A DNA stretch of 64,000 nt, from assembly GCA_020860565.1 (NCBI GenBank), contig JAJBUA010000033.1:1-64000 (forward strand). The letters are read 5' to 3'. Made by a program: the position numbers and the translations under genes. Source of the DNA: Clostridiales bacterium. GTDB lineage: Bacteria > Bacillota > Clostridia > Lachnospirales > Lachnospiraceae. A model generated the notes under the pieces. That model ran no database searches and had not been told where the DNA came from. It saw nothing but the letters and a program-made list of their open reading frames with translations. This document shows, piece after piece, positions 36,328-64,000 of this stretch (the stretch's first letter is position 1; each line of letters opens with the position of its first letter).

Positions 36328-36992
36328 TTCTCATACTCCTTAAAAATATGCGTAAATTCCCGGCAATTTGCCGCGGCGTCCCCGCGAAATACCGCAGATC
36401 CCGCTACAATGATATTTGCGCCGGCATCCAGAATCTGCCTCACATTGCCAGAACCCACGCCGCCATCCACCTCAATATCCATATTCAGCCCTTTGCGTTT
36501 CGTCATCTCCCTCAGGTCCCGGATCTTATCCAACGCATATGGAATAAACTTCTGCCCGCCAAATCCCGGATTCACACTCATAATCAGCACCATATCCAGC
36601 TCCGTCAGCAGATATTCCAGTGTCGATACCGGCGTTGCGGGATTTAACGCCACCGCCGCTTTCATCCCCAGTTCTTTGATCTGGTTCACCGTGCGGTCCA
36701 GATGTGTGCAGGCTTCCTGATGCACGCAGATCAGATCCGCCCCGGCTTCCTTCATATCCCTGACATAGCGCCCCGGTTCCTCCACCATCATATGTACGTC
36801 AAAGCATTTGTCCGTACACGGACGGATGCTTTTGATCACCGGCATCCCATAGGAAATGCTCGGCACAAACATACCGTCCATCACATCAATATGGATCCAG
36901 TCAGCCCCGGCTGCGGCAACCGTCTCCACCTCACTCCCCAGCTTTCGGAAATCCGCCGATAAAATCGACGGAGCTAAGATCAATCTCTTCAA
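36324..36992 (-). CDS. rpe: Ribulose-phosphate 3-epimerase
   Basis: [48 protein letters not shown]. Confidence 0.98.
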
Positions 36993-37870
36993 TACCGTTT
37001 CCTCCCTTTCAGCTCCTGAACCAGCAGCTTATAATTTTCATACCGGCTGCGGGCGATCTTCCCCTCTTCTACAGCCGCTTTCACTCCGCACACCGGCTCC
37101 CCGATATGCATACAGTCCTCCCCAAACCGGCAGCCTGATCCATAGCGGGCAAACTCCGGGAAATAATACTTTAACTTCTTCTCCTCCATCTCCTCTGCCA
37201 TCAGCGAACTGAACCCCGGCGTGTCCATAAGATAAGTGTCCGCCTCCACACAAAAAAGCTCCGCATGGCGGGTCGTATGCTTTCCCCGCTGGACCTTTTC
37301 GCTGATGCTGCCGACCTCCATCACCGCCTCCGGCAAAACCGCATTCGTCAGAGACGATTTACCGACCCCGGAAGGCCCCGCGAGAATCGTCGTCCTGCCT
37401 CTGAGGAAATCCCGGATCTCTTCAATCCCCCGGTTCTCCTTCACACTGATGCCATAAACAGGATACCCCGCCAACCGGTAAATCGCCCGGTATTTCTCCA
37501 CCTTAACCTCGTCTGCCAGATCACATTTATTAAAACAGACCGATACCGGGATCTCCCTGACCTCCATCATCACAAGAAAACGGTCCAGCAGATTCAGGTT
37601 CGGCTCCGGGCTCGCCGCGGCAAACACCACCAGCGCCTGATCGATATTAGCGGAAAGCGGCCGGATCAACTCATTTCTGCGAGGCAGGATCTCATCAATA
37701 TTTCCCTCCTGATCCCCTTCATCCGTCACCGTAAACTCCACATCATCGCCCACAACCGGCCGAATCCCCTTTTTGCGGAAAATACCTCTCGCCTTACATG
37801 CGTAAACACAGTTCACACAATCATGCACATAGTAAAATCCGCCAATTCCTTTTATAATCTTACCCTTCAT
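36989..37870 (-). CDS. rsgA: Ribosome small subunit-dependent GTPase A
   Basis: [27 protein letters not shown]-terminal Cys/His zinc site; circularly permuted GTPase. Confidence 0.97.
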
Positions 37871-37917
37871 ACTTCTCCGTTTTCAAGTTTATATTACTCT
37901 CCTATGCCAATACAACA

Positions 37918-38055
37918 GTCCCTGAGAGGAAAGAATATCCGCAGAGGACATTTTTCACGTCGGCACTTAGCGAGCAGGTTTTTGCGAGCTTAGTACCGCT
38001 ACGTGAAAGTCTAAGCGCAAGCGATCCTCGGAGGATATTCTTTCCTCTCAGGGAC
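37918..38055. repeat. Long palindromic element, copy 1
   Basis: Perfect 23-bp terminal inverted repeat GTCCCTGAGAGGAAAGAATATCC/GGATATTCTTTCCTCTCAGGGAC; internal TTTCACGT/ACGTGAAA; near-identical in sequence to the reverse complement of 63533-63676. Confidence 0.9.
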
Positions 38056-38086
38056 GGACTCCTGGCCATTAAAATAATTCCTATCC

Positions 38087-40270
38087 CTAATCCATCGGAA
38101 AGAACGTCAGACTATAACTCTCCAGCACCTCACCGGTACTCGCATTCACCACTTCCACTTCCCCGTCCGAACTGCCATTAATGCTCTCAATACTGGTAAA
38201 ATTAATCGGAATGACCGTATCACCGGTAACTGTCACAGGCGCCGTCAGCTCTTTATAAACATCCTTCCCATTGGTTACCTGATGCAGCCGGATGCTGATC
38301 GTCATGCTCGCCGTTCCCGCACCGGGACCGATCAGATTCTTTAATTCATAAACATCACTGATCGACGCCACATATCGCTGCGTGCTGACAGTCTCCGTCA
38401 CCGCCTCCTCAGGTCCGGCGCTGATCACATAGTCGACCGTTCCGCCAATCACGATCTTCGTCCCGGCATCCACAGACTGGCTGATAATCGTACCTCTGGC
38501 AACTTCATCACTGTATTCCAGCACGGTCGCTCCCGGAGAAAGTCCTGCTTCCGCCAGCAGTGCGATGGCCTCCTCTTCGGTCAGCCCTGTGATCGCAGGC
38601 GCCTCCACGGTTTCAGCATTATCTTCTTCCTGATAACCTCCGCTGCTCACATAAAGCGTCACGACAGAACCCTCTGCCGCCAGTTCCGGCGTATATCCGA
38701 TCACATCGCCCGCCTCAACCGAATCATTCTCCACGGTCTCGGTCACCACTTCCAGGTTCATCGCCTTCAGGATCCGGATGGCAGACGCGGCATCCATATT
38801 TTCAATATCAAGCGCAGTAATATCCACCTTATCCGTCCCGTTGCTGACCGTGACAGTAACTTCCGACCATTTTACGATAACCGTTCCCGCTTCCGGTTCC
38901 TGACGGATCACCGATTCTTTTGCCACATCATCTGAATACTCATACGTAAATCTGGGTGTGAGATCATTCTCCCGCAGCAGCTGAGAAGCAGCCTCCTGCG
39001 TCATTCCGCTTACATCCGGCGTATAGAGTTCATTATCCCCCAGTTCTGCATCATCAGACTCTTCCGTCTGCGTCGCCGCATAACCGGAGCGAAACAGACC
39101 TGTCCCGGCCTGAAAGACTCCTCCCAGTTTGGTAAATACCGCAATCAGGACAACCACGATCAAAACGGCGGCTACCACTCCCGCAGCGGTAAAAAGATGC
39201 TCAAATTTCGGTTCTTTTGCTTCATGAACCGACTCCCCCTCTGCTTTTTTTCGCGTCTTTTTTCTCTCGTGTCCCCGATTGTCCGGCAGGGATTCCCCGT
39301 CCGGCTTCTCTTTTTCTCTTGTTTTTGACGATCGGCGGATCTGTGCCAGCTCGCTGTCGCTGATCTTTCTGGTTCCGCCCTCAGGAGCATCCGGCTGTAT
39401 TACTGCCTTTTCCGTTTCGTCCGCCGGTTTCCTCACCGTTTCGGTATCCGGCATAACGAGTACATGCCTGAGATCCGCAATCAGCTCATTGACATCCGCA
39501 TAGCGGCGCTCCGGCTTTTTCTCACAGCATTTCAGGATAATCTGCTCCAGTACCTTCGGGATCTCCGGATTGTAAACGCTCGGCGGCACCATCACATCTT
39601 CCAGATGCGACAGAGCAATCGCCACGGTACTCTCCCCGTTAAACGGCAGCTTCCCGGTTACCATCTCATAGATCGTAATACCCAGAGAATAGATATCGCT
39701 CCGCTCATCACTGAATCCGCCGCGCGCCTGTTCCGGCGAAATGTAGTGCACAGATCCCATCGCCGCCGAATTTAACGTCTGAGCCGATACTGCCCTCGCG
39801 ATTCCAAAATCCGCGACCTTTACCTTGCCGTCTTTGGAGATCAGCATATTCTGCGGCTTGATATCTCTGTGGATGATATGCTGCTCATGCGCCGCCGCAA
39901 TTCCCTGCGCTACCTGAATCGCGATTCCGATACTTTCCTTGATCTCCAGGCGTTCCTTCTTCGCGATATATGCTTTCAGCGTAATCCCTTCCACGAGTTC
40001 CATTACAATATAATGGATGCTTCCCTCATCGACAACATCATACACGTTGACGATATTCGGATGAGCCAGTCCCGCGGCGGCCTGCGCTTCCATGTTAAAT
40101 TTCGATACAAAGTTGCTGTCGTTGCAGAATTCCTCTTTTAATACCTTGATCGCAACCAGTCGGTTCAGTTTGTGGCATCTGGCCTTATAGACTTCTGACA
40201 TGCCGCCGGAACCGATCTGTTCCAGGATCTCATAACGATCCTGCAAAAACACTCCGGCCCTCAACATCAC
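38087..40270 (-). CDS. prkC: Serine/threonine protein kinase with PASTA repeats
   Basis: Kinase motifs HRDIKPQNMLI, DFGIARA; TM segment; PASTA-type repeats (VPDVSGMTQEEA-like). Confidence 0.97.
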   Translation of the reverse strand: MMLRAGVFLQDRYEILEQIGSGGMSEVYKARCHKLNRLVAIKVLKEEFCNDSNFVSKFNMEAQAAAGLAHPNIVNVYDVVDEGSIHYIVMELVEGITLKAYIAKKERLEIKESIGIAIQVAQGIAAAHEQHIIHRDIKPQNMLISKDGKVKVADFGIARAVSAQTLNSAAMGSVHYISPEQARGGFSDERSDIYSLGITIYEMVTGKLPFNGESTVAIALSHLEDVMVPPSVYNPEIPKVLEQIILKCCEKKPERRYADVNELIADLRHVLVMPDTETVRKPADETEKAVIQPDAPEGGTRKISDSELAQIRRSSKTREKEKPDGESLPDNRGHERKKTRKKAEGESVHEAKEPKFEHLFTAAGVVAAVLIVVVLIAVFTKLGGVFQAGTGLFRSGYAATQTEESDDAELGDNELYTPDVSGMTQEAASQLLRENDLTPRFTYEYSDDVAKESVIRQEPEAGTVIVKWSEVTVTVSNGTDKVDITALDIENMDAASAIRILKAMNLEVVTETVENDSVEAGDVIGYTPELAAEGSVVTLYVSSGGYQEEDNAETVEAPAITGLTEEEAIALLAEAGLSPGATVLEYSDEVARGTIISQSVDAGTKIVIGGTVDYVISAGPEEAVTETVSTQRYVASISDVYELKNLIGPGAGTASMTISIRLHQVTNGKDVYKELTAPVTVTGDTVIPINFTSIESINGSSDGEVEVVNASTGEVLESYSLTFFPMD

Positions 40271-62069: not shown

Positions 62070-63458
62070 TTAAAAGCGAAACTTCTCTTCAAAATAGCCC
62101 TTTAATTCCGCAATCGGAATTCTCACCTGCTCCATCGTATCACGGTCACGCACGGTCACCGCCTGATCCTGTTCCGACTCAAAGTCATACGTCACGCAGA
62201 ACGGCGTACCGATCTCATCCTGTCTGCGGTATCTCTTACCGATATTGCCTCTGTCATCATACTCACAATTATAGTATTTGCAGAGTTCTGTATAAATCCT
62301 TTCCGCGCCCTCATTCAGCTTCTTGGACAATGGAAGTACGCCGATCTTCACCGGAGCAATCGCCGGGTGGAAATGCAGTACGGTACGTACATCGCCCTCA
62401 CCGATCTCTTCCTCATCATAAGCCGCACACAGGAATGCCAGCGTCACACGATCCGCTCCCAGTGACGGCTCGATCACGTACGGAATATATTTTTCCTTCT
62501 GTTCATCATCAAAATAGGTCATATCCTGACCGGAAGTATTCTGATGCTGGGTCAGATCATAGTCTGTGCGGTCCGCAATTCCCCAGAGCTCACCCCAGCC
62601 GAACGGGAAGAGGAATTCGATATCTGTGGTTCCCTTGCTGTAGAAGCAAAGCTCCTCCGGCGAATGGTCGCGCAGACGCATCTCATCTTCCTTAATGCCC
62701 AGAGACAGCAGCCAGTCACGGCAGAAGCCTCTCCAGTACTGGAACCATTCCAGATCAGTACCCGGCTTGCAAAAAAATTCCAGTTCCATCTGTTCAAACT
62801 CGCGGGTACGGAAGGTAAAGTTACCTGGCGTAATCTCGTTGCGGAACGACTTGCCGATCTGTCCGATGCCGAAAGGTACCTTTTTACGGGATGTACGCTG
62901 AACATTCTTAAAATTAACAAAGATGCCCTGCGCGGTCTCCGGACGCAGATAAACGGTATTCTTTGCGTCCTCTGTTACGCCCTGGAAGGTCTTGAACATC
63001 AGGTTGAACTGACGGATATCGGTAAAATCGTGCTTACCGCAGGACGGGCAGGGAATCTGGTTATCTTCGATATACTGTTTCATCTGCTCCTGACTCCAGC
63101 CGTCGACGGTTCCCTCGATGGTAATGCCTTTTTCTTCCATATAATCTTCGATCAGCTTGTCGGCGCGGAAACGCTCTTTGCAGGCCTTGCAGTCCATCAG
63201 CGGGTCGGAAAAGCCGCCCAGATGTCCGGATGCCACCCAGGTCTGTGAATTCATCAGGATTGCGCAGTCAACACCCACGTTCCAGGGGCTCTCCTGCACG
63301 AATTTCTGCCACCAGGCGCGTTTGACATTATTTTTCAGCTCCACGCCGAGATTGCCGTAATCCCAGGTGTTGGCAAGTCCGCCGTATATCTCCGAACCCG
63401 GGTATACAAAGCCTCGGTTTTTTGCCAGAGCTACGATTTTTTCCATTGTCTTTTCCAT
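62070..63458 (-). CDS. glyS: Glycine--tRNA ligase (dimeric type)
   Basis: [66 protein letters not shown]. Confidence 0.98.
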
Positions 63459-63532: not shown

Positions 63533-63676
63533 GTCCGTGAGAGGAAAGAATATCTTCCGAGGACCGTTTGCACTTAGGTTTTCACGTAGCGGTACTAAAC
63601 TCACCGGAAAAACATCCGGTTCGTTAAGTGCCGACGTGAAAAATGTCCTCTACAGATATTCTTTCCTCTCACGGAC
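63533..63676. repeat. Long palindromic element, copy 2
   Basis: Perfect 23-bp terminal inverted repeat GTCCGTGAGAGGAAAGAATATCT/AGATATTCTTTCCTCTCACGGAC; reverse complement aligns with 37918-38055. Confidence 0.9.
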
Positions 63677-63742
63677 TACTTTGTTGGCAAAATGAGCATC
63701 CTTCCTCTCTCGCTGGATTATAGCATGTCACCCGCCAATATT

Positions 63743-64000
63743 TCAATACCCGTCCTGCATCATCTTTAAAATTTCCAGAGAGTGAAAAGGATGATCCAGA
63801 AATTTTTTCTTTAGGATTTCTATGTTCTCACTGAGTTCTTTCTGTGCGTCTTCCCGAAGGATAAATGTATACAGACGTTCCAGCGGCGCCGCTATAATGT
63901 ACTCCCATGCGTAGCGTGCTGAGTCGCCGGCCTGCCCCGGCGGCTGCTCGGTGTATTCTCCGTTGATGACCAGGATGCGCAGTTCAAAGATGCGCTGCAC
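63743..64000 (-). CDS. recO: DNA repair protein RecO, C-terminal part (truncated by window edge)
   Basis: FELRILVINGEY...DSARYAWEYIIAAPLERLYTFILRE...FHSLEILKMM; upstream of glyS. Confidence 0.75.
   Translation of the reverse strand: MQRIFELRILVINGEYTEQPPGQAGDSARYAWEYIIAAPLERLYTFILREDAQKELSENIEILKKKFLDHPFHSLEILKMMQDGY

Follow-up and report, generated by a model that had tools for sequence, protein, structure and literature searches.

The window, a 64,000-nucleotide stretch of DNA from a 2.8 Mb Lachnospiraceae genome (G000), contains two copies of a long hairpin-forming element. Copy 1, of the 138-bp type, occupies positions 37918–38055 on the plus strand (F orientation; covariance model score 150 bits), in the intergenic region between open reading frames read as prkC (38087–40270) and rsgA (36989–37870), which follow one another in that order on the minus strand, and to both of which the F strand of the element is antisense. 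Its terminal arms (37918–37940 and 38033–38055) are perfectly complementary and enclose a conserved core at 37944–38029 (GAGGACATTTTTCACGTCGGCACTTA..TTAGTACCGCTACGTGAAA) that bears a CT bulge as well as conserved mismatches and includes a GNRA side-hairpin at 38015–38022 (GCGCAAGC) with the loop GCAA. Based on the information profile of the flanks, the element is further bounded by a left end at 37903–37917 (TATGCCAATACAACA; family consensus TATGCCAATAAAGTA) and a right end at 38056–38072 (GGACTCCTGGCCATTAA; family consensus GGACGgTTcgCCAATAa).

Copy 2, of the 144-bp type, lies on the minus strand at 63533–63676 (169 bits), with its 5' and 3' terminal arms, in F orientation, at 63654–63676 and 63533–63555, respectively. 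It is upstream of glyS, a minus-strand open reading frame read as glycyl-tRNA synthetase (62070–63458), with which its F strand is in sense. Directly upstream of copy 2, a promoter-like TTGAAA-18-TATAAT sequence, recognised by consensus match alone, is present at 63717–63746 on the minus strand and would place the F strand of copy 2 inside the glyS 5' leader.

The first-pass annotation had placed copy 1 between prkC and rsgA, aligned it with the reverse complement of 63533–63676 and described exactly complementary 23-bp arms differing at two compensated positions. The placement was confirmed, the alignment extended over the full length, interrupted at the apical loop alone by a 6-base gap, and the arms were exactly complementary in both copies. 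Both arm differences were indeed compensated, with C-G versus T-A at position 23 as described and C-G in copy 1 versus G-C in copy 2 at position 5, rather than at position 4 as originally given. The predicted folds were far more stable than those of dinucleotide-shuffled sequences (z = -9.6 for copy 1 and -11.8 for copy 2), with none of 200 shuffles as good.

Distribution and anatomy of the repeat family

A DNA search of G000, with 40 candidates scored, returned matches throughout the genome, and a covariance model trained on 29 copies placed the element at approximately 50 distinct sites, thus revealing the further genomic copies for which the first-pass annotation had proposed a search. Scanning of 61 relatives identified matches in 19 genomes from six genera, with at least 52 matches each in the sister species (G019) and in the more distant G023. 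A multi-genus covariance model detected the element in 160 of 397 sampled Lachnospiraceae genomes, representing 142 of 334 genera, and in 7 of 292 genomes in a class-wide sample, all seven belonging to Lachnospiraceae; few candidates were scored per genome in these two scans, and copy numbers within them are therefore lower bounds. Among the matches listed in an exact-core scan of genome contigs there were also single matches in unrelated phyla, which are probably due to chance.

Neither window copy matched an Rfam 15 covariance model at gathering score, in agreement with the earlier statement that the element belongs to no family that could be named, and permissive Rfam scans of 12 loci returned only sub-threshold matches to unrelated hairpins at the elements. 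A known RNA family was consequently rejected as an identity for the element. Phage and plasmid records gave no match for the queries tried, leaving a phage or plasmid origin without a matching record, and no published description of the family was found in the open-access literature.

In F orientation, the element consists of the left end, an arm of approximately 23 bp, the core, the side-hairpin, the second arm and the right end. The elements measure 138–189 bp. The arms have no common sequence across genera, whereas the core (family consensus ACGTCGGCACTTA..TTAGTACCGCTACGT) persists, including the CT bulge and the C.A and U.U mismatches. The side-hairpin comprises two pairs and a tetraloop. 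Of 147 distinct elements, 143 had a GNRA loop, in which any of the four bases occurred at the N position; the closing pair was C-G in 90, U-A in 49, U.G in eight and C.A in none. The tetranucleotide preceding the hairpin foot was usually GTAG in G000, G019, G023 and G007, with CCAG, GCAG and others found elsewhere. A 181–189-bp class (among loci L110–L124 of G000) has an additional inner hairpin (CCATATAACGTGTCACTGGCACGTTATATGG) within its core, and this class and the 144-bp type swap at orthologous sites.

Neighbouring elements less than about 1.5 kb apart were nearly always arranged head to head, with a hand count of approximately 35 minus-plus pairs across 11 genomes, two plus-plus pairs and one plus-minus pair, the last at a junction of adjacent units. 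In G023, almost every copy belongs to an inverted doublet inside a repeat of approximately 510 bp with terminal repeats GTATACCTTATCGTGC/GCACGATAAGGTATAC. The same genome contains a second palindromic repeat (GTATACCTTATCGTGCGGAGC..CCCGGAAGGGTATAC; L089–L106, L313 and L317) of approximately 72 bp, often in tandem, which shares its ends with the 510-bp doublet-bearing unit and also brackets an agr-like locus (L313). In G019, a recurrent AACTTCCGATAAGTTATATTATAG sequence adjoins a subset of copies (flanks of L129, L147, L141 and L226), several of which have GTCTCTGC arms, and is possibly either another repeat or the outer end of an element subfamily. Partial copies of one element end occur in tandem before an assembly gap in the same species (L140, approximately positions 1150–1500).

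Insertion history and evolution of the arms

The prkC–rsgA junction was sought in 24 congeners by means of RsgA, which was matched in all 24. Copy 1 was found in the same place and orientation in G000 and G019, and the junction was short and element-free in all 19 other congeners inspected, while copy 2 was likewise common to G000 and G019 and missing from all five other congeners inspected. Copies of the element are thus insertions that were later vertically inherited, and both window copies are old insertions common to the two sister species. No empty site for the exact boundaries was obtained in G019, which shares both window copies, and a candidate empty site elsewhere (L024/L061) proved to be a deletion scar.

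Pairing in the arms was almost complete despite extensive sequence change. Across 65 distinct copies from G000 and G019, among which there were 49 different arms, 1474 of 1495 arm cells were Watson-Crick pairs, 205 of them double-changed relative to the consensus, with the remainder comprising 13 G.T, six A.C and two other combinations. The covariation score was reached by none of 500 shuffles, and slid controls scored 0.05–0.17 against 0.32 and 0.87; the covariation proposed for checking in the first-pass annotation, and expected of a structured RNA, was therefore far above both kinds of control.

Arm changes were then considered between orthologous insertion sites of G000 and G019, of which twelve were compared, or thirteen with copy 2; orthology at one of the sites considered (L023/L139) was assigned from one flank alone. 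At the seven sites without a core-type swap, there were 12 double and three single changes, as against approximately 1.1 double and 24.7 single changes expected under independence (p ~ 2e-9). Copy 1 differed from its orthologue by one double arm change and copy 2 by five, with no single change in either case. Over the twelve sites, a hand count gave 11 transitions and 13 transversions among the double changes. This balance, together with the scarcity of intermediates, fits template switching, since two-step RNA evolution through G.U pairs should favour transitions and leave intermediates behind. Template switching is known to homogenise the arms of inverted repeats and to invert their spacers, and a role for it in maintaining RNA stems has been proposed (PMC8604942, PMC8794818). 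DNA template switching is thus the probable means by which the arms remain complementary in place, along with some constraint at the RNA level, and neither of the causes of compensation put forward in the first-pass annotation, i.e. selection on pairing or mobilisation as a folded unit, best explains them.

Several observations bear against arm copying as the whole account. Ectopic conversion happens between copies, as core types differ between orthologues at L111, L115, L121 and copy 2; some double arm changes may accordingly be imported, and imported perfect-armed copies could mimic double changes arising in place. The excess of G.U over A.C on the F strand extends to the arms (14:5 and 42:12) as well as the core, indicating that the arms too are subject to RNA-level tolerance or to strand-biased deamination. 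Finally, template switching within the arms does not by itself explain the orthologous site L006/L142, where the two species have near-identical arms and the element, both ends included, points in opposite directions.

Mode of spread and relationship to known repeats

The GNRA loop with its free N position, the absence of C.A from the closing pairs and the excess of G.U over A.C together argue for the F strand being relevant as RNA at one step or another, although part of this signal could stem from strand-biased mutation and from shared ancestry. Support for an RNA-level role concerns mainly the core, which carries an RNA-like signature on one strand, with its conserved mismatches and GNRA side-hairpin retained across genera. 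One explanation is that the family is a structured RNA, either a cis-acting mRNA element or a small RNA gene, of which the copies were duplicated and the stem was kept paired by selection on the RNA. The loop and closing-pair pattern, with U.G tolerated, the G.U excess and the strong covariation are all in keeping with such a family, as are the position of copy 2 between the promoter-like site and glyS and the co-orientation of the F strand with its upstream neighbouring gene, seen for 65 of the 88 cases scored by simple ORF call in G000 and G019. However, no clear orientation bias was seen at 13 hand-scored loci in distant low-copy genomes, many copies (copy 1 included) are antisense to their own operon, sites are empty in congeners, G.U intermediates make up less than 1% of arm cells in G000 and G019, and transversions account for around half of the double changes that arose in place. 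Further, a common neighbouring gene was ruled out in low-copy genomes, where copies lie between unrelated housekeeping genes, e.g. within argJ–argB and opp operons, and share no recombinase. Selection on a structured RNA is consequently considered unlikely as the full explanation, and arm-to-arm template switching fits the in-place double changes, few intermediates and many transversions better than RNA selection alone.

Mobilisation by a known class of transposase was also considered. If the family were a single-stranded DNA element of the REP type, mobilised by a Y1 (HUH) tyrosine transposase such as TnpA-REP or those of IS200/IS605, this would account for the GTAG or nnAG preceding the hairpin foot in many genera, the REPIN-like inverted doublets and the conserved stem irregularities, which are also found in some E. 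coli REPs (PMC8266576). The presence of Y1 transposases does not track copy number, however: no PF01797 match was found in G034 (26 element matches) or G025 (eight), only a 60-amino-acid fragment was found in G000, and the genomes G001, G002, G012 and G021 encode a Y1 transposase without any match to the element (R1). Given also the variable foot tetranucleotide and a size of approximately 140 nt as against 20–60 nt for REPs, a Y1-moved origin is rather improbable. Even more doubtful is a MITE origin, in which the parent would be an ordinary DD(E/D) insertion sequence and the arms would represent the terminal inverted repeats. The doublet-bearing 510-bp repeat of G023 and its terminal repeats would lend themselves to this reading, as would the direct flank repeats seen at some copies (e.g. 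ATACTGTTGAT at L146). The excess of such flank repeats is weak (z ~ 3.5), a constant target-site duplication was not evident, and the arm sequence is unconserved even within one genome. Terminal repeats bound by a transposase are normally conserved in insertion sequences. In addition, no transposase was present at the inspected element loci, nor in the inspected spacers between head-to-head pairs that might have held an autonomous element, and a 3.9-kb interval of G023 between GTATACCTTATCGTGC/GCACGATAAGGTATAC-type terminal repeats contained an agr-like locus and no transposase.

We conclude that the family is best described as a dispersed hairpin element that is non-autonomous and has a core under selection, in which this core is recognised as a folded strand, the arms behave as a self-correcting palindrome and the transcript forms a hairpin, a reading to which a probability of roughly 0.55 is assigned. 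Insertion of the element has taken place many times, at intergenic positions in the chromosomes of Lachnospiraceae. Under this model, the mismatch-bearing core and its GNRA side-hairpin would be recognised in the form of a folded strand, with RNA read from the F strand the likeliest candidate, during some step of the element's spread or activity. The arms may serve merely as a long paired base, in which replication would carry a mutation from one arm over to the other, through short-range template switching or palindrome correction, such that they drift as a self-correcting palindrome. In transcripts, the element could act as a stable intergenic hairpin, i.e. a target for RNase III, an mRNA stabiliser or a polarity buffer. 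The more specific proposal that it is a family-wide mobile RNA or hairpin element, whose core is recognised by a putative mobilising protein and whose arms self-correct, is advanced tentatively, at somewhat below even odds.

The element appears to represent an undescribed, and probably unannotated, repeat family present in approximately 40% of sampled genomes of Lachnospiraceae, a dominant gut family. Perfect covariation is usually taken to prove selection on RNA, and the present case urges caution given that much of it seems to be due to arm-to-arm copying. Each genome pair provides dozens of copies inherited vertically, and the family thereby offers a direct test of template switching versus two-step selection in the compensation of long stems. 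If the self-correcting mobile element is real, each genome would preserve template-switch mutation in dozens of natural records running in parallel.

In relation to previously described repeats, the element works like REP, ERIC or MITE repeats while departing from the full definition of each; of the structured ncRNA, REP/MITE-like or processing-hairpin identities initially suggested, a multi-copy, REP/MITE-like structured element was upheld, with the definitions of REPs and MITEs themselves fitting incompletely. Like REPs and REPINs, for which compensatory stem changes have been reported (PMC3116915), it is intergenic and palindromic, occurs in dozens of copies with inverted doublets and in some genomes is usually preceded by GTAG. 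It differs in its size (approximately 140–190 bp, outside the 20–60 bp range of REPs), in its free arms, family-wide conserved core and GNRA side-hairpin, and in lacking a Y1 transposase that tracks it, cognate TnpA-REP/RAYT sequence being limited to a fragment in G000 and missing from G034 and G025. As with MITEs, it is a short, non-coding, multi-copy insertion, but its arms vary in sequence where MITE termini would be conserved, and the inspected loci showed no transposase that would tie them to an autonomous insertion sequence. ERIC (127 bp), NEMIS/Correia and other MITE-like repeats, which can change how stable an mRNA is or serve as RNase III cleavage targets (PMC10969869), are similarly sized, intergenic, hairpin-forming and non-autonomous, but reside in unrelated hosts, and the arms of the present element are hypervariable yet perfectly paired; this comparison was made at the sequence level through Rfam and the literature. 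Stems proposed to be maintained by template switching share the double Watson-Crick changes and homogenised arms, and inverted spacers have been reported for them (PMC8794818, PMC8604942), but those are rRNA and microRNA stems or short coding inverted repeats rather than a dispersed family with approximately 50 parallel copies per genome.

A parallel within the same genomes is Clostridiales-1 RNA (RF01699), also a multi-copy structured RNA candidate with a long hairpin and a variable stem, which nevertheless has its own conserved motifs (including a GCUUGC loop), its own architecture and other sites in G000, the element falling outside its model. Clostridiales-1 RNA may share the arm-copying behaviour. 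It was itself found to be dispersed at high copy number in Lachnospiraceae, with more than 50 matches in each of G121 and G133.
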